Both the position numbers and the translations under genes were made by a program. From contig CAIVPR010000078.1 in the NCBI GenBank assembly GCA_903907865.1, positions 248,001 to 312,000 of the forward strand: a stretch of DNA of 64,000 bases, given 5' to 3'. Under the pieces are notes generated by a model. That model searched no databases, had not been told where the DNA came from, and saw only the letters and a list, made by a program, of their open reading frames with translations. The DNA comes from an uncultured Acidobacteriia bacterium. Lineage in GTDB: Bacteria > Acidobacteriota > Terriglobia > Bryobacterales > Bryobacteraceae. This document shows positions 2,036-34,727 of this stretch, one piece after another; position 1 is the first letter of the stretch; every line of letters begins with the position of its first letter.

Positions 2036-4528
2036 TCACTCCCGGACCGCCAGCGAGAGCAGGGATTGGACCGTGTGAACCCGCGGGGCGCATTCCACCT
2101 GCACGCCGCCACCGACGACTTCTGCCAACCGGATGCCAGCCCGGCGGGTCTTCGACTCCTTCTTGGCCTCGTACATGCGAAGGTCGGCAGTTTCAAGCAA
2201 TGATTCCGCGTCGCGGCCATCCTGCGGGAACATCGCCACCCCGGAACTGATGGTGATGAAAGGCGCACCGCAGGCCGTCATGCCCGCCTCCGGTCCAAGA
2301 TTGCGAATCCGGTTTAGGATGCCCGAAAGGTTTTGGGGATCGGCGTCGCGCAGGACCAACACGAACTCATCGCCCCCGAGCCGCGCAACGTAGTCGCTCT
2401 TGCGGCAGCATTCGCTCAGTCCCAAGGCAATCTCCTGCAAAACCCGGTTTCCTGCGAGATGACCGTATTCGTCATTGGCCTGCTTGAAACCGTCCAAATC
2501 CAGCACCACTACGGCCAGCATTCCATGGCGTCCGGCGGCCTCCCGCAGCGCCTGCTCCAGAAGTCTCGACAGGGAGCCCGCGTTGAGCAAGCCGGTCAAT
2601 TCATCCTTCTCCGCCGCGAACTCCACCCGGCTGAACCGGAGGGAATTTTCAATCGCTAAGCCAGCCTTGCCGCGGATCGCCAACAGAACCCGGAGGTGGC
2701 CGCTGTCAAACGCCTCGGGCCGGAGGTGGTAGAGGCTCAGCACGCCCACCACCCCCTCGCGACCGTTCAGCGGAACCGAGATCGCCGAGCGAAGGTTGGT
2801 CAGCTTGTGCTGGTCGTTCAAATACCCCGCCTCGACTGTGGGGTGTCCGTTCAGAATCGGTGAGTCGTTCTCCGCCACCCAGCCCGAGAGCCCCTGTCCG
2901 ATCGGAATCTTCAGCGACGAGAACAAACGAAAGCTCTCCCCTTTGACGAACTGGGGGATCAAACGGTCACCCTCCACCAGATAGATGACGACGGCGTCGT
3001 GGGGCACCATCTTGCCCAATCGGAGAGCCAGCAACGCCAAGGTCTCGTCCAAACGCAAGGAGTTCCCCAGATCGTTGGTGATCTCAACCAGAAGTTGGAC
3101 TTCACGCCTCGCATTGGCGATGGCGACTGTGAAGCTGTACTCTTGCGCCACTGGCCCGGACTCCGGGTCGTCCTCGTGCCCTTCCCCGTCCTCAAAGACA
3201 TGGTGATCCGATCCGGGCAGCATCCCCGTTCCCTCGGAATTCCCGGCCCGGGTCATCGCTTCCAATTCCTCGTGGCGCCGCCGCAGCACTTCAACGATCC
3301 GCGGATCGAAGCTGCTGCCCGCCCCCTGTTCCACCATGTCCATCGCTTCCCTCATCGGCAGCGCGGCCCGGTATTGCCGGGGAGACGCCAAGGCGTCCAA
3401 GCAGTCCACCGCCGACAGAATCCGCGCTCCAATCGGAATCTCATCGCCCTTCAGACCGTCCGGATAGCCGCTGCCATCATACTTCTCGTGGTGGGACCGA
3501 ACGATGGGCACCACCGGATAGGGAAAGTTCACCCGTTCCAGGATCTCGGCCCCGACAATCGGATGGATCTTCATCTTGTCGAATTCCTCGGTCGTCAGGC
3601 GACCGGGCTTTGACACGATGTACTCGGGCACGGCAAGCTTACCAATGTCGTGGAGCAGCGAGGCAACTTCAACTGCCTTCACCTCCTGTGCCGACAGTCC
3701 GATTTCTTTCGCCATCTCGACCGCGTAGACTTGGACCCGCTTCAGGTGCGACGCGGTCGTCTCGTCCTTGGCTTCAATCGCGAGTGCCAGTGCCTCGATT
3801 GTTCGCCAGTGCAGGCGTGCCATTTGCACGATGTGGCCTTGCTGATCCTCGATCCTCGCCAGGTACCTGCTGTAGGAGCGGTATAGCAGCACCGAAGGCG
3901 GAATCAGCAACAAAAGCGACTGCCAGCGGATGGCGCCGCCTTCCGCGTGCAGGCTGCCCGCAATCGCACCACCCGCCAAGTACTGCAGAACTGTCCCGGA
4001 GAGATCGCGGCGCCAGAGTTGAACGGCACCCCGCCCAGAGGCCAAGCCGGTCATGACAGCGACAATCGCCGTGTTCACCGCGAAGTACGCCAAGGCCGCA
4101 GTGACAACCGCTATCGACTTGGTACTGTCCACAGACAGCAGAATCCGGGCTCCAAGAACCGTGTGTGCGGCCAATAACGCAACGGGAACGGTGAGACTGG
4201 CGAACAGCGGCGCTTCCAAGGCGCGAATCCCCGCTGGTCGATTCAGGTTCTGCACCAGCATGCTGAGCACCCCTATCCACAAGGCGGTGGGAAACTGCAG
4301 GTCCATCAGCCCCGAGACAACGCATATGCAGTTCAACGAGATGGGCGCAAAGACCCCGGGTAGGCGGAGCCTGAATCCGCTTACAACCAGTGAAACCGCA
4401 CAGTACACGCCTAGTCGGACGGGAACTTCACGGGTACGGTCCCACTCCATGGATGCGAAGCATAGGATAGCCATGCCTGTGCAGACTGCCAGCATCCAGA
4501 AAGCGCGCGCTCGAACAGGCATCTCCAT
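2036..4528 (-). CDS. Membrane cyclic-di-GMP protein with HD-GYP, GAF and GGDEF domains
   Basis: About 830 residues counted from ATG 4528; ATG 4522 is an equally possible start, and an open upstream extension to 4636 has no convincing ribosome site. Order: about eight hydrophobic segments (1-215), an HD-GYP phosphodiesterase domain with LLHDIGKLAVPE near residue 292 and HHEKYDGSGYP near 350, a GAF sensor domain (about 480-620), and a C-terminal diguanylate cyclase domain with an intact GGDEF near 717. The inhibitory I-site RKSD lies exactly five residues before GGDEF, so product feedback is likely. Having both a synthase and a hydrolase module on one chain suggests that the GAF or membrane domain switches the net activity. 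Ligands are unknown. Confidence 0.9.
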   Translation of the reverse strand: MEMPVRARAFWMLAVCTGMAILCFASMEWDRTREVPVRLGVYCAVSLVVSGFRLRLPGVFAPISLNCICVVSGLMDLQFPTALWIGVLSMLVQNLNRPAGIRALEAPLFASLTVPVALLAAHTVLGARILLSVDSTKSIAVVTAALAYFAVNTAIVAVMTGLASGRGAVQLWRRDLSGTVLQYLAGGAIAGSLHAEGGAIRWQSLLLLIPPSVLLYRSYSRYLARIEDQQGHIVQMARLHWRTIEALALAIEAKDETTASHLKRVQVYAVEMAKEIGLSAQEVKAVEVASLLHDIGKLAVPEYIVSKPGRLTTEEFDKMKIHPIVGAEILERVNFPYPVVPIVRSHHEKYDGSGYPDGLKGDEIPIGARILSAVDCLDALASPRQYRAALPMREAMDMVEQGAGSSFDPRIVEVLRRRHEELEAMTRAGNSEGTGMLPGSDHHVFEDGEGHEDDPESGPVAQEYSFTVAIANARREVQLLVEITNDLGNSLRLDETLALLALRLGKMVPHDAVVIYLVEGDRLIPQFVKGESFRLFSSLKIPIGQGLSGWVAENDSPILNGHPTVEAGYLNDQHKLTNLRSAISVPLNGREGVVGVLSLYHLRPEAFDSGHLRVLLAIRGKAGLAIENSLRFSRVEFAAEKDELTGLLNAGSLSRLLEQALREAAGRHGMLAVVVLDLDGFKQANDEYGHLAGNRVLQEIALGLSECCRKSDYVARLGGDEFVLVLRDADPQNLSGILNRIRNLGPEAGMTACGAPFITISSGVAMFPQDGRDAESLLETADLRMYEAKKESKTRRAGIRLAEVVGGGVQVECAPRVHTVQSLLSLAVRE

Positions 4529-5075: not shown

Positions 5076-6422
5076 CTACTTTCGGACGTACACAACCGTC
5101 CCGCTCGTTCGCCCCACTTCCCGATACCCCGCAATCCAACCCCGCAATTCCGCATACCGGTCCATCGCCAACTCCGGGTTGTACATGCTGAGCCCGTCGA
5201 TCACGACGTCCGCGCCCGACCGCGCCAGTTCCTCGCGCGCCTCGCGCGTCCCTTTCGTCAGCACCACCGTCGACTGCGTCAGATGCCGATCCGCAGGAAC
5301 CCCCGTCAGCGCCTGGGAATCCAGGTATGGCGTCGCCGGCTTCAGGCCCGTGTAGACGAAAAGCTCGGGCCGATATCCCCAGACATACAACGTCGCGTTC
5401 GCCGGGGCATTACGCAGTACAAGGCGGGCGGATTCCTGACTGTCGCGGTCCATAGCCAAATCGCTCCAGCCTTGGATCGAAACGTACCGCGGGGTGAAGC
5501 GGATCAACGGCACCAGGACGCTAGCCACGGCCACCGCCGCGACCACCTTCGAGCGCGTCGCGGCCAGCCCGCGAGCTGCCGGAATCGCCAGCGCGGGCAG
5601 CAGTAGGAAGAAGTACCGCGGGAAGAATCGCCATCCGAGCACCACGCCAAAATAGGCGACCACCACCCAAGCCACGAAACGCCAGTTCCGCTCGCGCCAC
5701 CAAGCCGAGGCGGCTCCAATCACGATGACCGCGTGGAAACCCAGCCAGTTCAGCGTCCGCACCACGCCATTCGCGACCGGGTTCGCGACCACCGGACTCC
5801 CGGCATACAGCGCGGGCCAGCGCCAAGCCTGGTCAATCCACGCCTCCAACGCCCCGATGTGCCACATCCACAGGACGGCGGCCAGGTTCGGCAACAGGAA
5901 CCCCCCAACCAGCGGCAGCAGTCCCGGCCAGACGAAGACCGCGCACGCCGCCAACACAAAGACCGCCTTGGTATTGAAAAGCAGCCCGACACCCGCCGCA
6001 ACACCGCACCAAAACGGCCTCCGCCGAATCGCGAACAGGATCGCCACCAAGTGGGGTGCCAACAACAAAAGGTCAGCCGCCAACGGCAGCACGCTGGAAT
6101 GAATGTCGAAGGTCAGGAAAAACGCGAACAACGCCGCTCCGACGTACCCCTCGCGCCGAGTCCATAGCCGCTCCGCCACCGCTCCGCCCAACAAACAAAC
6201 GATCCAGGCATAGACCGCCCCCGCGATCCGTCCAACCGGCCCGATCGACGCCCCCCACAACAGGTATACGGCGGGCACCAGCGGGGGCTTGTCAAACCAG
6301 ACGTCGCGGTAGAGCACCGAGCCCCGTTTCATTTGCAGCGCGGCCGCCAAAGGCAGCACCTCGCCCTCCCACAGCACGCCCGAATGGGCCAGCCGCGAGA
6401 CCACCAGCAGCACCAGCAACAA
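5076..6422 (-). CDS. Polytopic membrane glycosyltransferase of the ArnT/PMT (GT-C) type
   Basis: About 448 residues with 10-12 hydrophobic segments. The N-terminal part has VLWEGEVLPLAAALQMKRG and FDKPPLVPAVYLLWG; the acidic loop and the DKPP motif are typical of GT-C enzymes that use polyprenyl-phosphate sugars on the periplasmic face. The C-terminal 130 residues form a soluble domain. No ATG is available at the N-terminus: TTG 6422 is used here, but the coding pattern (NLFFALLLVLLVV) continues upstream of it, so initiation at an earlier non-ATG codon near 6450-6460 is possible. Sugar donor and acceptor cannot be deduced. Confidence 0.8.
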   Translation of the reverse strand: MLLVLLVVSRLAHSGVLWEGEVLPLAAALQMKRGSVLYRDVWFDKPPLVPAVYLLWGASIGPVGRIAGAVYAWIVCLLGGAVAERLWTRREGYVGAALFAFFLTFDIHSSVLPLAADLLLLAPHLVAILFAIRRRPFWCGVAAGVGLLFNTKAVFVLAACAVFVWPGLLPLVGGFLLPNLAAVLWMWHIGALEAWIDQAWRWPALYAGSPVVANPVANGVVRTLNWLGFHAVIVIGAASAWWRERNWRFVAWVVVAYFGVVLGWRFFPRYFFLLLPALAIPAARGLAATRSKVVAAVAVASVLVPLIRFTPRYVSIQGWSDLAMDRDSQESARLVLRNAPANATLYVWGYRPELFVYTGLKPATPYLDSQALTGVPADRHLTQSTVVLTKGTREAREELARSGADVVIDGLSMYNPELAMDRYAELRGWIAGYREVGRTSGTVVYVRK

Positions 6423-26911: not shown

Positions 26912-28363
26912 GTGTCCAGACTAAGATTCCTTGCCGGATTCGCCCTTGCGGCGGCCCCGTTTGCCATCGCCCAAGCCCCCCCAACGCCAGCGGCTCCCGC
27001 GCCCGCCGCCGCACCCGGTCGCGGCGCGCCGACTCCCGCCATGCTGGCCCAGCAGGCCGCCTCGTTGGCCGACCGCCAGAAGATGCTCGACCTTCTCGGC
27101 ATTAAGGAACTGCGCACCGGGGCCAACGGCAGCAATCCCGACGCCCCCAACGCCGCCAACTACGACGAATCCAAGGCCAATCCCTACCCCAAGCTTCCCG
27201 ATCCGCTCGTCATGAACGACGGCAAGCCGGTCAAGTCCGCCAAGGACTGGACGAACAAACGGCGTCCCGAAATCGTCGAGCTTTTCGACCGCGAAATCTA
27301 CGGCCGCATGCCGAAGAACACCCCCAAGGTCACGTGGGAAGTCACCAAGACCGAAGACGAGGTGAACGGCGGAGTGGCGGTGGTCACCAAGACCCTGGTC
27401 GGACACGTCGACAACTCCGGATACCCCGACGTCAAGGTTGAAATCGCCCTGACACTTTCCACCCCGAAGGACGCCAAGGGTCCCGTGCCCGTCATGCTGG
27501 AACTGGGTTTCGTGGGTGGTTTCGGACGCGGTCTCGCCGGCCGTGGTCCCATCCCCGGCGCGCCTCCCGCCCCCACCGGCCCCACGTGGCAGCAGCAACT
27601 GCTCGCCAAGGGCTGGGGCTACGCGGTGATTTCGCCCACCTCGGTGCAGCCCGACAACGGCGCGGGCCTCACGCAGGGCATCATCGGCCTCGTCAACAAG
27701 GGCAAGTCCCGCAAGGCGGACGATTGGGGTGCACTCCGCGCCTGGGGCTGGGGTGCCAGCCGCGCCCTCGACTACTTTGAAACCGACAAGGCCGTCGACG
27801 CCAAGAAGGTAGGCATCGAAGGCCATTCCCGTTACGGCAAGGCGACCGCGGTCGCGATGGCGGACGATTCCCGTTTCGCGATCGCGTTCGTCAGTTCCTC
27901 GGGCGAGGGCGGCCTGAAGCTGCACCGCCGGAACTGGGGCGAACTGGTGGAGAACGTCGCGGCGACCAACGAATACCATTGGATGGCCGGAAACTTCCTG
28001 AAGTACGCCGGTCCGAAGCACTGGGACGACCTGCCTGTGGACTCGCACGAACTGGTGGCCCTCTGCGCCCCCCGCCCGGTCTTCATCAGCGCCGGTGCCA
28101 CCAAGGGCGATGGCTGGGTCGATGCCAAAGGCAGCTTCCTCGCCGGCGCCGGTGCCGGTCCCGTCTACAAGTTGCTGGGGAAGAAGGACATGGGGACGAC
28201 CGAGTTCCCGGTCATCGAAACCGGCCTCATGGCTGGCGACGTGTCGTTCCGGCAACACACCGCCGGACACACGCCCGGCCCCAACTGGCCCGTGTTTATC
28301 GAGTTCGCCAGCCGCTACTTCGAGCCCACGCCTGCCACGAATAAGGAGGCCAAGAAGAAGTGA
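26912..28363 (+). CDS. CE15-type (glucuronoyl esterase-like) carbohydrate esterase, secreted
   Basis: 483 residues from GTG 26912, chosen because AGGAG ends 8 nt before it. A signal peptide (FLAGFALAAAPFAIAQ) and a Pro/Ala linker precede an alpha/beta hydrolase. The nucleophile motif is IEGHSRYGKATAVA (near residue 305), followed by SSSGEGG, and the catalytic His is in QHTAGHTPGPNW (near 449). These match bacterial CE15 enzymes that cut lignin-glucuronoxylan ester bonds; relatives may act on other esters. The stop overlaps the next gene (GTGA). Confidence 0.85.
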   Translation: MSRLRFLAGFALAAAPFAIAQAPPTPAAPAPAAAPGRGAPTPAMLAQQAASLADRQKMLDLLGIKELRTGANGSNPDAPNAANYDESKANPYPKLPDPLVMNDGKPVKSAKDWTNKRRPEIVELFDREIYGRMPKNTPKVTWEVTKTEDEVNGGVAVVTKTLVGHVDNSGYPDVKVEIALTLSTPKDAKGPVPVMLELGFVGGFGRGLAGRGPIPGAPPAPTGPTWQQQLLAKGWGYAVISPTSVQPDNGAGLTQGIIGLVNKGKSRKADDWGALRAWGWGASRALDYFETDKAVDAKKVGIEGHSRYGKATAVAMADDSRFAIAFVSSSGEGGLKLHRRNWGELVENVAATNEYHWMAGNFLKYAGPKHWDDLPVDSHELVALCAPRPVFISAGATKGDGWVDAKGSFLAGAGAGPVYKLLGKKDMGTTEFPVIETGLMAGDVSFRQHTAGHTPGPNWPVFIEFASRYFEPTPATNKEAKKK

Positions 28364-29298
28364 GGGTTGCGTGCGCGCTGCTGGCTTTGAATTTTCTTTG
28401 TGCTGTCCCGGGGGTGGCGCAGGACGCGCCCAAGCGTCCCAAGATCATCGGCGTCGCCCACATTTCCCTGTTCGTGCATGACATCGCCAAGTCAAGGGAG
28501 TTCTACAAGGACTTCCTCGGCTTCGACGAGCCCTTCCAGTTGGACAAATCCGACGGATCGTTGGCGCTGACGTTCATCAAGGTCAACGACCGGCAGTACA
28601 TCGAACTGGTGCCGGAGACGAAGCCGGACACCGACCGCCTCGGGCACATTTCAATCGAAGTGGAAAGCGCCGAGGCGATGCGACTCTATCTCAAGGCGCA
28701 CGGGGTCAAGGTTCCGGACAGCGTCCCCAAGGGCCGGATCAAGAATTCCAACTTCAACGTGAAGGATCCAGACGGCCACCAAGTCGAGATCGTGCAGTAT
28801 GAGCCGGACGGCTGGACCGTGCGAGAGAAGGGCAAGTTCATGAATGGCCCCCGCATCTCGAAGCGCATGATGCACTTGGGAATCACGGTGGGGGATTTGG
28901 ACGCGTCGATGGCGTTCTACCGTGACCTGCTCGGCTTCCAAGAGATCTGGCGCGGCAGCCGCGACGGCAAAGTCCTGAGCTGGGTGAACATGAAGCTGCC
29001 TGACAGCGACGACTACATCGAGTTCATGCTGAAAGATCGTCCCCAGACCCTGTCCACGCTTGGGACGGCGCACCACATCGCGCTGGAAACGCCGGACATC
29101 GAGAAGAGCAAGTCCGAACTGGCGGCGCGCGCCGAGAATGCGCACTACACCAAGCCGCTGGAAGTCCGGACCGGGACCAACCGGAAGCGCCAGATGAACC
29201 TGTACGACCCCGACGGCACCCGCACGGAAATGATGGAGCCGGGCACCGTGGACGGCGTTTCGGCACCGTCTTCGACGGCCGCGCCACCCAAGAACTAG
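28360..29298 (+). CDS. Two-domain VOC (glyoxalase/dioxygenase fold) protein, exported
   Basis: 312 residues from GTG 28360, which overlaps the esterase stop. After a signal peptide (LLALNFLCAVPGVAQ) come two VOC domains. The first has metal-ligand candidates in VAHISLF, YIELVPE, LGHISIEV and HQVEIVQ; the second has MHLGITV, YIEFML, AHHIALE and RTEMMEP. Signal peptides are rare for VOC enzymes, which are mostly cytoplasmic. Its stop TAG lies inside the left palindrome (29293-29320). Confidence 0.85.
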   Translation: MRVACALLALNFLCAVPGVAQDAPKRPKIIGVAHISLFVHDIAKSREFYKDFLGFDEPFQLDKSDGSLALTFIKVNDRQYIELVPETKPDTDRLGHISIEVESAEAMRLYLKAHGVKVPDSVPKGRIKNSNFNVKDPDGHQVEIVQYEPDGWTVREKGKFMNGPRISKRMMHLGITVGDLDASMAFYRDLLGFQEIWRGSRDGKVLSWVNMKLPDSDDYIEFMLKDRPQTLSTLGTAHHIALETPDIEKSKSELAARAENAHYTKPLEVRTGTNRKRQMNLYDPDGTRTEMMEPGTVDGVSAPSSTAAPPKN

Positions 29299-29320
29299 AG
29301 TCAGCCGACTGACTCTAGTT
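29293..29320. repeat. 28-bp perfect palindrome flanking the DUF4143 gene (left copy)
   Basis: Arms AACTAGAGTCAG (29293-29304) and CTGACTCTAGTT (29309-29320) are fully complementary around a 4-nt loop CCGA. A related 28-bp sequence lies at the other end of the ATPase gene. It carries the stop codon of the upstream VOC gene. A terminator role is possible, but no T-run follows on either strand. Confidence 0.85.
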
Positions 29321-29368
29321 CGAGTAACATAGGCAACCCTTTCTGGTTCAAGCACTTGCGGCCGCAAA

Positions 29369-30868
29369 TTAGTGCAGCCCTGATTCTGCGGCGGTCTCGA
29401 ACTCCAGTTGTTGTGCCAGCGTTTGGCTGCGCAAGCCATGGATCAGGTTGTGCCCGACGGCATAGCAGTAGACGCTGGCGGGCACAAAGCGCCATTTCCG
29501 ACCATCGACGACGTCACTTGCGGTCTCCGTCCGAGTTGTTACCAACACGTCGTCCAATTTGTTCGCGTTTAGAAAGTTAGTCAGGCCCACCAGTTCCGAC
29601 CGCCGGTCTACGACTCGGTCCGACCATTTCATCTCAACGGCCCAAGCTGGCTTCTGATCGGCCCGCAGCTTCACCATGTCGACCTCGCCGTCCCCCCAGC
29701 GCGCGTAGTAGAGCGGGTCCGGGCTGTGGAACCATTGCGCGAAGAGAGCCGTTTCCACGAGCCGACCGATCTCCTTGTCGTTCGGACCGATCGGCGAAAA
29801 GAGGGCGGCACGCATTGACGGGTTGGTTAGATACACCTTGAAGTGCGTAGCGCGCTGGAACCGCTTGGCGTTGTGATCGATGCGGTGCACGATCCGGATG
29901 AGGAACGCGGCCTCGAGGTAGTCGATGTACCTCTTGATGGTGTTCTTGGCCACACCCGAGTTCTGGGACAACTCGCCGAGCGAGATTTCGTTGCCGGAGT
30001 TGTAGGCAAGGGTGGTGAACAGGTAGTTCAGCTCCTGAACGTCCTCAATACCGTAAAGGCTGGGCAGATCGCGCAACAGGACCTTGTCGATAATGTCGCT
30101 CTTGATGAATCGGACCGGGTCGGCTTGTATTTCCGGCGAGAAGATGACTTCCGGGTATCCGCCGAAATTCAGGTAGCGCAGGAATTCGTCGTTGAGCCGG
30201 TTGATGTCCACCGCGACGAACGACGCCGGGCCGGTCTTCCGGGGAATGCCTCCCATAGGACCGTCGAGCATATCCCCTTTACCCAGCAAGTTGAGATATT
30301 CGAAGAACGTCAATGGAGGCAGCAGGAAGTCGGTAAAGCGTCCCGCGCCGGACTCCTGGCTCTTCAGGCGTAGGGCGGCGGCGGCGGACCCGGACGCAAT
30401 GCACCGCACCTTGTCGAAATTATCGACGATGGATTTCAGCTGGACCTCCCATTTGCGGAGGTATTGGATCTCGTCGAAAAAGATGTAGACCGGCTCTGTG
30501 TGGTAGTCGATCCCTACGGCTTGGCCGTAGTATTCGAGCAGTTGTTCGATCCGGAGGCCGTTGTAGACCGGGCTGTCCACCGACACGTAGCAGATTGCTT
30601 CCGGCTTCACTCCGCTGGTCAGCAGCGACTGGATCCCATGGTGGATCATCACCGTCTTGCCGACGCGCCGTGGGCCCAGCAGGATCACGGCCCGTCGGAC
30701 CGGCCGCTCGACAAGATGCATAAAGGAGTCCAGGTAGGCGCGCGGAGTCATGGCCTGTACGGTCTCGTAGACCGAATGGCCACTGGCCCACCACGGGTTT
30801 TCCGCCCGGATCCGTCGAATGATGTCTTCTGAGGCGATTGACTGCATTTGCCGCTCCAGAGCCATCAT
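29369..30868 (-). CDS. AAA ATPase with DUF4143 and PD-(D/E)XK-like C-terminus
   Basis: 499 residues. Walker A is LLGPRRVGKTVMIHHG (near residue 66), Walker B is VYIFFDEIQYLRKWE (near 132) and the sensor is CIASGSAAAALR. A winged-helix/DUF4143 part follows (EISLGELSQNSGVAKNTIKR), and the C-terminus has a nuclease-like DGEVDMVK ... WAVEMKWSD. The family is widespread in bacteria and archaea and of unsettled function. The gene stands alone, on the opposite strand to its left neighbour, framed by two related palindromes, as if it moved or is regulated as one unit. Confidence 0.88.
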   Translation of the reverse strand: MMALERQMQSIASEDIIRRIRAENPWWASGHSVYETVQAMTPRAYLDSFMHLVERPVRRAVILLGPRRVGKTVMIHHGIQSLLTSGVKPEAICYVSVDSPVYNGLRIEQLLEYYGQAVGIDYHTEPVYIFFDEIQYLRKWEVQLKSIVDNFDKVRCIASGSAAAALRLKSQESGAGRFTDFLLPPLTFFEYLNLLGKGDMLDGPMGGIPRKTGPASFVAVDINRLNDEFLRYLNFGGYPEVIFSPEIQADPVRFIKSDIIDKVLLRDLPSLYGIEDVQELNYLFTTLAYNSGNEISLGELSQNSGVAKNTIKRYIDYLEAAFLIRIVHRIDHNAKRFQRATHFKVYLTNPSMRAALFSPIGPNDKEIGRLVETALFAQWFHSPDPLYYARWGDGEVDMVKLRADQKPAWAVEMKWSDRVVDRRSELVGLTNFLNANKLDDVLVTTRTETASDVVDGRKWRFVPASVYCYAVGHNLIHGLRSQTLAQQLEFETAAESGLH

Positions 30869-30881
30869 CCCACACCCAGAA

Positions 30882-30909
30882 AATTAGAGTCAATCAACTG
30901 ACCCTAATT
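30882..30909. repeat. 28-bp palindrome flanking the DUF4143 gene (right copy)
   Basis: Arms AATTAGAGTCA (30882-30892) and TGACCCTAATT (30899-30909) pair with one mismatch. Aligned to the left copy (29293-29320), 22 of 28 positions agree and all six differences are transitions. It lies 13 nt upstream of the ATPase start codon, so it may also be the promoter operator. Confidence 0.8.
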
Positions 30910-31034
30910 CTTCTGCATCGTGTAAGCCATTGCGTGTCAATCAGTTGCAAGAAACAATTAGTGCATCCCCAAGAAGAGCGCGGCCCGATCACCCGCATTG
31001 GGGTCTCCGGGCCGCTCCACTTCTCCCAAACGAC

Positions 31035-32225
31035 CTAAGCCGCGATGCTGGCGTGGGGATCGATGACGAACTTCTTCGCCGCGCCCTTGTCGAAGTCCTG
31101 GTAGCCCCTCGGCGCGTCGTCCAGCGAGATCACTTCGACATTGCACGCCTTGGCCACCTGCACCTTGTCATGCAGGATCGCCATCATCAACGCCCGGTTG
31201 TACTTCAGCACGGGGCACTGGCCGGTGGCAAAACTGTGCGACTTTGCCCAGCCCAGCCCGATCCGAATCCCCAGCGTTCCAGTCTTCGCGTTGTCGTCCA
31301 CGCCGCCTGGATCGTCCGTCACGTACAGACCCGGAATACCGAGCGCACCACCCGCACGGGTGATCGTCATCAGGGCATTGAGCACCGTTGCCGGACGCTC
31401 AACGACCGCGTCCTTGCCGTGTCCGCGCGCCTCGAAGCCCACGCAATCGACCGCCGCGTCCACTTCGGGCACACCGACAATCTCGGCGATCCGGTCACCC
31501 AGCGACGCGTCGCCCCGGAGGTCGATGGTCTCGCAGCCAAAACTGCGCGCCTGAGCCAAGCGTTCCGGAATCATGTCGCCGACGATCACGACGGCCGCGC
31601 CCAGCAGATGGCAGCCCGCCGCCGAGGCGAGTCCAACCGGTCCCGCGCCCGCAATGTACACCACGGAACCCGGCCCGACGCCCGCCGTCACGGCCCCATG
31701 GAAACCGGTCGGGAAGATGTCCGACAACAAGGTCAGGTCGCGGATCTTCGACATGGCTTTGTCTTTGTCGGGGAAACGCAGCAGGTTGAAGTCGGCGTAG
31801 GGGACCATGACGTATTCCGCCTGGCCGCCGACCCAGCCGCCCATGTCGACATAGCCATATGCCGCGCCCGGACGCGCCGGATTCACATTCAGGCAGATGC
31901 CCGTCCGACCTTCCTTGCAATTTCGACAACGTCCGCAGGCGATGTTGAACGGGACCGAGCAGAGGTCCCCAACCTTGATGAATTCCACGTCGCGGCCAGC
32001 TTCTATGACCTCGCCGGTGATCTCGTGGCCGAGGATCAGGCCCGACGGAGCCGTGGTGCGACCGCGGACCATATGTTGGTCGCTCCCGCAAATATTGGTC
32101 GAAACGACCTTCAGGATGACGCCGTGCTCACACTTCCGATCGCCCAGTGCCAGCTTCGGGAAGTCTATCGACTGGATCTCCACCTTGCCGGGACCGACGT
32201 ACGCGACGCCGCGATTTGTTGCCAT
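31035..32225 (-). CDS. fdhA: Glutathione-independent formaldehyde dehydrogenase
   Basis: 396 residues. Zinc-dependent MDR alcohol dehydrogenase: catalytic zinc region NICGSDQHMVRG and GHEITGEVIE, structural-zinc cysteines in CGRCRNCKEGRTGIC, and the NAD motif IAGAGPVGLASAAG. The long N-terminal and internal loops (GAAYGYVDMGGWVGGQAEYV) are specific to the FdhA branch that oxidises formaldehyde to formate without added glutathione. AAGGAG lies 9 nt upstream of the ATG. Confidence 0.92.
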   Translation of the reverse strand: MATNRGVAYVGPGKVEIQSIDFPKLALGDRKCEHGVILKVVSTNICGSDQHMVRGRTTAPSGLILGHEITGEVIEAGRDVEFIKVGDLCSVPFNIACGRCRNCKEGRTGICLNVNPARPGAAYGYVDMGGWVGGQAEYVMVPYADFNLLRFPDKDKAMSKIRDLTLLSDIFPTGFHGAVTAGVGPGSVVYIAGAGPVGLASAAGCHLLGAAVVIVGDMIPERLAQARSFGCETIDLRGDASLGDRIAEIVGVPEVDAAVDCVGFEARGHGKDAVVERPATVLNALMTITRAGGALGIPGLYVTDDPGGVDDNAKTGTLGIRIGLGWAKSHSFATGQCPVLKYNRALMMAILHDKVQVAKACNVEVISLDDAPRGYQDFDKGAAKKFVIDPHASIAA

Positions 32226-32315
32226 GATTGTTCTCTCCTTGAGACTGTGGCCGTACAGGGGCCATGGATGTCGTTGAAGAGTCTATCACTTTTGGCGCGG
32301 ATCGAATGGGTCCGT

Positions 32316-34727
32316 CTAGTCCGCGCGCAACGCAAGCATCGGGTCCAACTTGGACGCGCGCCGGGCTGGCAGGTACGCCGCCGCCACCGCCACTGCGACC
32401 AGGAGCGCGACCGTTCCACCCAGCGCCACCGGGTCCGACGGCGACAGGCCGAACAGCAGGGTAGCCATGATCCGCCCAACCATCAGGGAGCCCAGGATAC
32501 CCGACACAATCCCGCCACCCACCACAACCATGGTCCGGGACATGACCTCGCGCCGCACCGCGAACGGCGTCGCGCCCAAGGCCATCCGCAGGCCAATCTC
32601 CTGCGTGCGCCGTCCAACCGAATACGAGACGACTCCATAGATCCCCACCGAGGCCAGCAATAGCGCCGCCACCGCGAAGCCCCCGAGCAGCATCACGATG
32701 AACCGACGGGGTGACACCGCCCGCGACAACAGGGCTCCGAGTTCCTGGTACTCCGCCACGGGCAAGGTGGAGTCGACTTGGCGGAGCGCCTGTCCAACCG
32801 AGGCCGCGACGGTGCCGACGGGCAGCGACGACCGCACCACCAGTTCCACCGAATTGGGCGTCATCTGGGCAATGGGGAAATACATCTCCAGTCCACCCTC
32901 TGTCTCGAGGGCTTCGTGCCTCACGTCACCCACGACGCCAACGATGCGGGCCCCGTCTTTTCCCTGCGACACCAAGCCACCCAGCGGGTCCTTCGATCCG
33001 AACAGACGCCGCGCCATCTTCTGGTTGATGATGACGACCAGCGGTGAGCCGGCTGTATCGCGGTCATCGAATTGGCGACCGGCCAGCAGCGGGATTCCCA
33101 TTGTCCGTAGGTAGCCGGGATCCACCAATCTCGGATGGGAATTCGGATACTCGCCCGGCGGGTATTGGACTCCGCTTAGCCCGCCACCCCAACTCCGATC
33201 CCGGCTCAACGGCAGCGCGTCGGTGATGCCGATGGATCGAACACCCGGAACGGCTGCCACGGTACCGACGAGGCGGTCGAAGTACTGGAGACGCGCGACA
33301 TCGTCGCGAAACTTGCCAGCGGTGTCGATTCGCCAACTAGCGGCGTGGTCGGCCACAAAACCCGGATTGACATCCAGGACCCTCAGAAAGCTCCGCATCA
33401 ACAGGCCGGCTCCTACGAGCAGCATGCAGGCAAGGGCGACTTCGGAGAGCACCAAGCCGTTTCGGGTCCAGCCGGAACGACGCCCCTCGGACATGGAGCG
33501 GCCCCCCTCCTTGAGTGCGTGGGCGTCTTGCCACCCCGAAACTCCCAGCGCCGGAAGAAGTCCGAAGAGAAATGCGGTCGCCACGGTCGCCAGCACCGTG
33601 AATCCAAGGGCCCACCCGTCAATCCGCACGGTCCGGAGCAGGGGAATGTTGACTCCTTGGATCGTCCCGAGGGCCCGTATGGCAACCAGCGCGAGCCCCA
33701 AGCCGGCCAGCGCGCCAGGAAGGACTATCATCAGGCTTTCCACCAGCATCTGCCGGACCAGCCGGGCGCGGCCCGCCCCCAGCGCGGAACGAATCGCCAT
33801 CTCCTTTTTCCGGGATGTCGCACGCGACAGCATGAGGCTCGACAGGTTCGCGCACCCGATAAGCAAAACGAGGCCGACCGCGCCCAGCAAGACAAGCAGG
33901 CCCTGCCTGAAGCGCCCGGTCAGATAGTCGCCAAGCGGTACGGCGTTGGATCCAAAGCGGTATCGGTCGGGGTGCTCGCGCCGAATCTGTTCTGAAAGGA
34001 CGTCGAGTTCCGCCTGGGCTTGGCGCACTGTGTAGCCGGGCTTCAAGCGCCCGAGAATCGACAGGGTATTTCCCATGCGGTCCGAATCCTGGTTCAGGGG
34101 AAACGGGACGAGGATGTCCACGCGCGAGCCCGGTGTGAAGATTGCGCTGAAGTCAAAGGACTCCGGCAGGACGCCCACGACGCGATAGGACTCGTTGTTC
34201 AGCGTGACGGCTCGCTCCACAACCTTGCGGTCGCCGCCGAACCGACGCCGCCACAACCCGTAGGTCAGGATGACTGCGCGCGCGGAACCCTTCCCCTGTG
34301 CCTCCTCGGGCGCAAACCAGCGGCCTACCTCGGGCTGGATGCCGAGAAACGATAGGAAATTCTGCGTGACATCGACGCCGACCAACCGCTCGGGCTCGCC
34401 GATGCCAACCATGCTGTAGGTCCCGTAGTCGAAGAAGGCGAACCACGCGGCCATGTCCTCCATCGTCCGGGTGCCCCGCTTCCAGTCGAGGTAGTTTGCT
34501 ACGCGCGATGTGCGCGAGGACAGCCCGCAATGACCGCGCTTGTCCGTGTTGGAGATGAGGACCAGACGGTCGGCAGCCTTTAGATTTGGGGGCTGGAGCA
34601 GCAGGGTGTTGACGACGGAGAAGATTGCGGTGTTGGAGCCGATCCCGAGGGCCAGAATCAGAATGGCTGTGATTGTGAAGGCCCGGTCGTGCCAGAGGGA
34701 GCGCAGCGCGTAGCGTATGTCCTGCAT
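32316..34727 (-). CDS. Orphan MacB-type ABC permease of the acidobacterial ADOP family
   Basis: 803 residues. N-terminal YALRSLWHDRAFTITAILIL begins the first TM helix, then a MacB periplasmic core, an FtsX domain (three helices), a second periplasmic core and a second FtsX domain with VSYSVGRRTQEIGLRMALGA and the terminal ASKLDPMLALRAD. This duplicated 800-residue layout without an ATPase is the acidobacterial duplicated orphan permease family, which is expanded in Solibacter relatives. Substrate unknown. It is followed upstream by an unrelated toxin-antitoxin remnant. Confidence 0.93.
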   Translation of the reverse strand: MQDIRYALRSLWHDRAFTITAILILALGIGSNTAIFSVVNTLLLQPPNLKAADRLVLISNTDKRGHCGLSSRTSRVANYLDWKRGTRTMEDMAAWFAFFDYGTYSMVGIGEPERLVGVDVTQNFLSFLGIQPEVGRWFAPEEAQGKGSARAVILTYGLWRRRFGGDRKVVERAVTLNNESYRVVGVLPESFDFSAIFTPGSRVDILVPFPLNQDSDRMGNTLSILGRLKPGYTVRQAQAELDVLSEQIRREHPDRYRFGSNAVPLGDYLTGRFRQGLLVLLGAVGLVLLIGCANLSSLMLSRATSRKKEMAIRSALGAGRARLVRQMLVESLMIVLPGALAGLGLALVAIRALGTIQGVNIPLLRTVRIDGWALGFTVLATVATAFLFGLLPALGVSGWQDAHALKEGGRSMSEGRRSGWTRNGLVLSEVALACMLLVGAGLLMRSFLRVLDVNPGFVADHAASWRIDTAGKFRDDVARLQYFDRLVGTVAAVPGVRSIGITDALPLSRDRSWGGGLSGVQYPPGEYPNSHPRLVDPGYLRTMGIPLLAGRQFDDRDTAGSPLVVIINQKMARRLFGSKDPLGGLVSQGKDGARIVGVVGDVRHEALETEGGLEMYFPIAQMTPNSVELVVRSSLPVGTVAASVGQALRQVDSTLPVAEYQELGALLSRAVSPRRFIVMLLGGFAVAALLLASVGIYGVVSYSVGRRTQEIGLRMALGATPFAVRREVMSRTMVVVGGGIVSGILGSLMVGRIMATLLFGLSPSDPVALGGTVALLVAVAVAAAYLPARRASKLDPMLALRAD

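Follow-up and report, generated by a model that had tools for sequence, protein, structure and literature searches.

A DUF4143 ATPase gene between two diverged, palindrome-bearing repeats: a possible one-gene mobile unit in the PDC-S01 family

Introduction

A paper on archaea ranks PDC-S01 fourth by frequency among the defences of prokaryotes and states that most PDCs still await validation (PMC12988326). An anti-phage role of this candidate defence family is suspected. Our searches of the open-access literature turned up no account of repeats flanking PDC-S01 or DUF4143 genes, nor of gene loss leaving a solo repeat, and the AAA_14 + DUF4143 family was unnamed among the matches listed for literature on single-gene mobile elements with an ATPase, direct repeats and palindromes. 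SSO1545 is an archaeal AAA+ ATPase of solved structure, in which the AAA+ domain is followed by a winged helix and a nuclease-like C-terminus. In Tn7-type elements the two corresponding activities are carried by TnsA, a PD-(D/E)XK protein, and TnsC, an AAA+ protein.

Here we describe a gene within a 64-kb stretch of DNA (the window, that is, the whole of the stretch analysed) whose product belongs to the same protein family, and we compare its surroundings with those of related genes in other genomes.

Results

The ATPase and its neighbours

The gene (29369..30868, minus strand), delimited by its ORF, Pfam and PDC-S01 matches and alignment, encodes a 499-aa protein with an AAA_14 (58-192) and a DUF4143 (266-416) domain. 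M8 (30847) may be the true start of translation, since the alignment of most relatives sets in there. The Pfam scores were 98.9 bits for AAA_14 (cut-off 27) and 76.6 bits for DUF4143 (cut-off 28.1), with no other domain above cut-off; a weak HTH_11 match at residues 290-326 (E 0.0045) lies below its cut-off. PADLOC assigned the protein to PDC-S01 (E 2.7e-57), and it was without a match in PHROGs. An alignment of 28 relatives, sharing 27-66% identity with the window protein, was used to identify conserved residues, and all seven PDC-S01 models were matched by 28/28 of its members. Invariant in 28/28 aligned sequences were G65, R67, R68, G70 and K71 of Walker A, D132 and E133 of Walker B, and further residues E372, D397 and E412-x-K414, which supply the conserved D and ExK of PD-(D/E)XK nucleases. 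The protein is an AAA+ ATPase with a probable winged helix, and its C-terminus, by motif alone, may be read as a PD-(D/E)XK-like centre.

The neighbouring genes, both identified by ORF and Pfam and treated as context outside the unit, are a glyoxalase/VOC gene on the left (28360..29298, plus strand) and a zinc-type alcohol dehydrogenase-like (ADH) gene on the right (31035..32225, minus strand).

Palindromes and a diverged direct repeat

The first-pass annotation had reported an exact palindrome with a 12-bp stem at 29293-29320, a related palindrome at 30882-30909 and a 10-bp repeat at 29367-29376 and 30956-30965. An inverted-repeat search confirmed the first, whose arms lengthen to 13 bp over 29292-29321 and which is the sole perfect inverted repeat with a stem of at least 11 and a loop of 0-8 in the whole 64-kb window. 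First-order Markov simulations of the window produced a 13-bp stem in 4/150 and a 12-bp stem in 11/150, and taken alone this palindrome is unusual, not impossible by chance. It contains the stop codon of the VOC gene, as had been claimed (TAG at 29296-29298). The second palindrome, near-perfect and of the form AATTAGAGTCA-N6-TGACCCTAATT, was verified by reading the sequence and by pattern searches: it is identical to the first at 22/28 positions and differs from it by six transitions. Lastly, a motif search placed the 10-bp repeat, AATTAGTGCA, at both reported positions, which are its only matches with at most one mismatch in the window. By itself this pair is not significant, as shuffles gave a chance mean of 0.91 and at least two copies in 21/100.

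Two features had escaped the first-pass annotation. A single offset of 1589 bp is common to the palindrome pair and the AATTAGTGCA pair, and therefore the palindromes and the AATTAGTGCA copies are the two ends of one diverged direct repeat of ~97 bp. Local alignment of the upstream copy (U, 30873..30969, minus strand), which lies in the promoter region, with the downstream copy (D, 29285..29380, minus strand) gave a score of 29.5 (z = 10.5 against 60 shuffles), with poor conservation in the middle part. Moreover, the ATPase stop codon (29369-29371, minus strand) lies inside D, within its AATTAGTGCA end; D starts 12 bp ahead of the end of the ATPase gene, overlapping those last 12 bp as well as the end of the VOC gene. 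A chance origin of the repeat was rejected on the basis of the common offset, the z of 10.5 and the linkage in other genomes described below.

The pattern TAGAGTCA-N6-TGACYCTA occurs without mismatch at just these two sites in its own genome of 7.5 Mb, and a REP element, expected in many copies, was rejected on this count. The only sigma-70-like match in 29200-31100 runs from 30893 to 30864 on the minus strand (shuffles average 0.7), and the right arm of the U palindrome forms its first hexamer. No terminator-like site was found at either window palindrome. Rfam returned no match up to E = 1 in 28000-32500, and an RNA element was rejected on that basis. A DDE or HUH transposon was also rejected, since the ATPase gene, with AAA_14 and DUF4143 as its only Pfam matches above cut-off, is the sole gene between the repeats and a transposase gene is absent.

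The window resembles the VOC region of a genome of the same genus (G015) at the DNA level up to 29292, one base before the D palindrome, and no further. The VOC protein ends in APPKN in the window and in APPK in G015, showing that the window gene uses the TAG of the palindrome as its stop. The DNA 3′ of the VOC gene in G015 differs from the window and the contig that carries its ADH gene stops beyond that gene, so a matched empty site for the window was not obtained.

Linkage of palindrome and gene

Searches of 151 related genomes with the window palindrome pattern, allowing up to 2 mismatches, yielded matches only in its own genome (G000, twice), G137 and G052. In G137 the palindrome is just upstream of a 66% relative of the ATPase gene, whilst in G052 it is beside an ATPase fossil that retains residues 64-119 at 66% identity. 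No gap separates this fossil (L277:3328-4038) from the palindrome, which is perfect over 28 bp, and a truncated phosphoglucomutase-like frame lies alongside. With 3 mismatches, two additional genomes (G048 and G106) were matched at non-palindromic sites, and a reversed control pattern found matches in 6 genomes. G120 carries a 55% relative of the ATPase, and the window-type palindrome was not found there.

The Bacteroidales form of the palindrome was detected with 0-2 mismatches in 7/20 genomes, in six of them beside the gene and in G469 at the same place without it. Palindrome pairs on both sides, 42-43 bp apart, are found in G319, G460 and G268, and are incomplete in G154, G155 and G313. Of the 13 palindrome-less Bacteroidales genomes, the gene search took in eight (G188, G190, G193, G195, G200, G237, G271 and G284), with no match listed, and left out G461, G466, G467, G470 and G476. 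Viral sequences gave no match to the Bacteroidales palindrome. A lone palindrome of the type found at L107, the Acinetobacter-plasmid type, lies between convergent genes on a 139-kb viral contig (L286:6703-6730), and no ATPase relative was found in the 12.9 kb examined around it. The first-pass annotation had named palindromes kept without the gene as evidence against its proposal. Within the 151 related genomes the window type always accompanies the gene or a fossil of it, in line with that proposal. Palindromes kept without the gene were found as one scar, in G469, and as the lone viral palindrome, the latter counting against it.

Upstream palindromes in related genes

Absence of palindromes around other DUF4143 genes had likewise been put forward as a refutation, and this was not what we observed. 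Palindromes with a stem score of at least 9 within 130 bp upstream were present in 42/84 related genes, compared to 3/84 after shuffling and 10/189 other ORFs in the same loci (L102 and L061 were left out of this count, and the U palindrome of the window itself is below the stem cut-off used). The palindrome cores fall into similar forms, namely TAGAGTCA-N6-TGACTCTA in the window and L019, TAAGATCA-N6-TGATCTTA in L027, L093, L104 and L107, and AAATAAGG...CCTTATTT in L052, L055 and L059. A layout of 11 + 6 + 11 bp is seen in several relatives, e.g. L019, L041, L093, L104 and L107. In Bacteroidota relatives the palindrome directly precedes a TAnnTTTG-like box, followed by the start codon. Where relatives are found in unlike surroundings, the DNA that they have in common is the palindrome and the gene only, with similarity fading at the outer arm of the palindrome and shortly past the stop codon; taken alone, the same would be expected of a gene whose promoter is conserved.

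Repeats on both sides of related genes

Comparison of 350-bp flanks gave z of at least 6 in 14/79 related genes and in 3/128 other ORFs (L102, on the same contig as L019, was left out). BLAST within 600 bp identified flanking direct repeats in 22/86 related genes and 6/169 other ORFs (L102 and L061 left out; Fisher p = 3e-7, for loci that are not fully independent), the window repeat being too diverged to pass this test. These flanking repeats are of two kinds, deriving either from the gene's own promoter region (R) or from neighbour DNA. Many of the 22 found by BLAST are pieces of neighbour genes or dispersed intergenic repeats, not R, and only R-type repeats were counted as part of the unit. 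R-type repeats were found at the window, L030, L034, L069, L078, L085, L106 and L141-L143.

R is present on both sides in 6/6 loci of one Bacteroidales gene clade, where U and D are 82-95% identical. In these six loci D begins 15-22 bp ahead of the stop codon, and a copy of the gene's last codons is found in U too (6/6). Identity of U with D is 0.82-0.95 within a locus and 0.68-0.90 between loci; the ranges overlap, and concerted evolution of U and D is only a tendency. A downstream copy was not found in 11 other Bacteroidales loci (L144-L154; z ≤4.0) or in L020-L024 and L107 (z ≤2.9); z was ≤4.0 in 17/20 loci of that comparison. Around 8 distant plasmid relatives there was no flanking repeat (z ≤2.7). 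Most related loci are without D, which counts against the gene and its repeats being a unit.

Several loci show other arrangements. Names used for neighbour genes in relatives, such as alr, hsdR, mazF, topA, gldE and phosphoglucomutase, are putative and follow the look of the translations. In L101, an example of the neighbour-DNA kind, a 323-bp piece from the 3′ end of the upstream gene is present on either side of the related gene (3435-3757 and 5555-5877; 99% identical). One of the two belongs to the intact upstream gene, alanine-racemase-like by eye, and the other is a fragment. Related genes are also found between a fragment and a full copy of a neighbour in L074 (3718-3768 and 5526-5576; restriction-enzyme-like by eye) and in L054 (3758-3865 and 5811-5919; MazF-like by eye). 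In L103 (3547-7441) spacers of ~110-180 bp recur around both the ATPase gene and the gene next to it, and L104 is surrounded by other repeats; each is a possible cassette array. An 81-bp stretch of L027 (1609-1689), 1.4 kb upstream of the gene, encodes a 93% identical ATPase fragment from residue 340 and is possibly the remnant of another copy. Finally, L046 has a second ATPase gene (2301-3263), 25% identical, in tandem after the first.

A gene-less site in Bacteroidales

In G319, R-gene-R lies upstream of a topoisomerase-like (topA-like) gene. Both flanks of the G319 locus (L217 4200-5153 and 6602-7080) can be aligned with G469, where they enclose a single R of ~119 bp and no ATPase gene. The topoisomerase-like gene is 98% identical over 250 aa in G469, and that of G460, in which gene and both R occupy the position seen in G319, is more distant at 94%. 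As G460 falls outside the G319-G469 pair, loss of the gene in G469 needs one event; two independent insertions are a possible alternative. Within G319, G460 and G469 the palindrome pairs are confined to this site, with the exception of one 3-mismatch match in G469. The R left in G469 is D-like throughout (100/112 to D vs 87/112 to U), and a crossover inside R is thus not visible. G319 and G469 together provide the occupied site and the matching one-repeat site that are looked for in a mobile unit with direct terminal repeats.

Distribution of the family

At E 1e-20 the ATPase is matched in 9/151 related genomes including its own, in six of them at only 27-31% identity, and the closest relative is at 66% in Acidobacteria. 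The subfamily is single copy in 26/28 genomes of relatives. A tree of 79 proteins (built by a quick method, with long branches flagged and L019-L024, L061 and L098 left out beforehand) requires 14 phylum-label changes, the minimum being 10 and the shuffled mean 25.5. The family is strongly clustered by phylum and the tree is without sign of wide cross-phylum movement. Transfer is therefore argued from patchiness and unlike surroundings, not from the tree.

A phage origin was rejected, as the 9 weak matches in phage records are all below 60% identity and PHROGs gave none; a plasmid origin was rejected as only 2 of 72,556 plasmid records match the L101 query at E 1e-40, both from Acinetobacter. 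The window ATPase has five relatives in viral contigs, and none was found there for the L078 and L106 proteins. For R from G319, phage records gave nothing and plasmid records a single short match (38 bases at 87%). According to the record annotations, distant DUF4143 genes are found inside a type I restriction operon on a Treponema plasmid (L280) and between cas3 and cas4 on an Arcobacter plasmid (L281).

Discussion

We propose, with confidence that we would call evenly balanced, that the ATPase gene and the surrounding repeat form one horizontally moving unit of ~1.6 kb with the structure R-gene-R. This reading follows from palindromes that track the gene, from R on both sides both here and in six Bacteroidales loci, from the gene-less solo-R site and from a downstream R that begins inside the gene's last codons. 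Both proposals of the first-pass annotation, a one-gene mobile unit and an ATPase with two operators of its own, gain partial support from the palindromes upstream of related genes, from the linkage of the window palindrome with the gene or its fossil in 151 related genomes, and from the both-sides layout and the gene-less one-repeat site in Bacteroidales. The two do not exclude each other. Weighing against a unit are one copy per genome (26/28), unlike an active transposon, the fact that R x R loss needs host recombination only, the G120 relative without the palindrome and the lone viral palindrome.

The upstream palindromes are putative operators by which the protein would regulate transcription from its own promoter, as the promoter position in relatives suggests. 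Recombination between the two R could excise R plus the gene as a circle and leave one solo R behind, and because the gene's last codons come from R, the gene would be complete in the excised circle. The least certain step is that the protein may recognise the palindromes and cut or pair them to drive movement. That the protein itself is the mover, acting on its own palindromic terminal repeats, we consider unlikely.

The rival that survives best is an ordinary autoregulated gene, of defence or other function, whose palindromes are operators only. Here D would be the remnant of a tandem duplication or unequal recombination, and the gene would have spread by general transfer and homologous recombination. 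We regard this as a genuine, if tentative, possibility. It agrees with the palindrome at the promoter of Bacteroidota relatives, and with its overlap in the window with the only sigma-70-like match in 29200-31100. It also agrees with the retention of U in far more loci than D, with the tandem pair of such genes in L046 and with the listing of PDC-S01 as a defence candidate (PADLOC; PMC12988326). By itself, however, it leaves unexplained both the gene's last codons in U (6/6 Bacteroidales loci) and the placement of a single gene in unlike surroundings.

It seems to us improbable that the gene is a cassette on whose R a tyrosine recombinase of the Xer or integron type, from the host or from elsewhere, acts to move it. 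Sites that read 11 + 6 + 11 bp, including those of L019, L041, L093, L104 and L107, are spaced like dif sites, R takes in the 3′ end of the gene as in integron cassettes, and the ~180-bp spacers around L103 recur on both sides of the next gene. However, the arms are near-perfect palindromes, a recombinase gene is absent from the unit, the sites occur only at this gene and without arrays, and the spacing differs in Bacteroidales, where the arms surround 4 bases. Terminator or REP-like hairpins present at both ends by chance can be given hardly any credence: D does lie between two convergent genes, as does the lone viral palindrome, but the window palindromes are without a terminator-like site, are two copies in the genome rather than many, and are strictly linked with the gene.

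If the protein did act as the mover, PDC-S01 would include self-moving one-gene elements in which a single protein combines an AAA+ ATPase with a PD-(D/E)XK-like nuclease, and these would represent a class of mobile element without a transposase or recombinase of known type. If PDC-S01 members are mobile one-gene units with terminal repeats of their own, their nearness to defence genes might mirror the place of insertion and not function, and tallies of defence systems would have to be read with caution.

The AAA_14 + DUF4143 ATPases of PDC-S01, whose models 28/28 members match, are the same protein family as the window ATPase. The likeness to SSO1545 is one of domain order, together with a weak DUF234 match of the window ATPase (residues 392-417, E 0.13); phmmer found no sequence match in the PDB and a profile search no convincing match. 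LTR elements are alike in their direct terminal repeats and in gene loss that leaves one repeat, as in solo LTRs, and differ in that the unit has no reverse transcriptase and has repeats of ~100 bp that bear palindromes and overlap the gene's own end. Integron gene cassettes resemble it, by eye, in having one gene with its 3′ end inside a repeat and repeats on both sides, whereas the window has no array and its repeats are specific to one gene. Finally, the two activities of TnsA and TnsC would here be joined in one protein, in a unit that, unlike Tn7-type elements, is without a DDE transposase gene.
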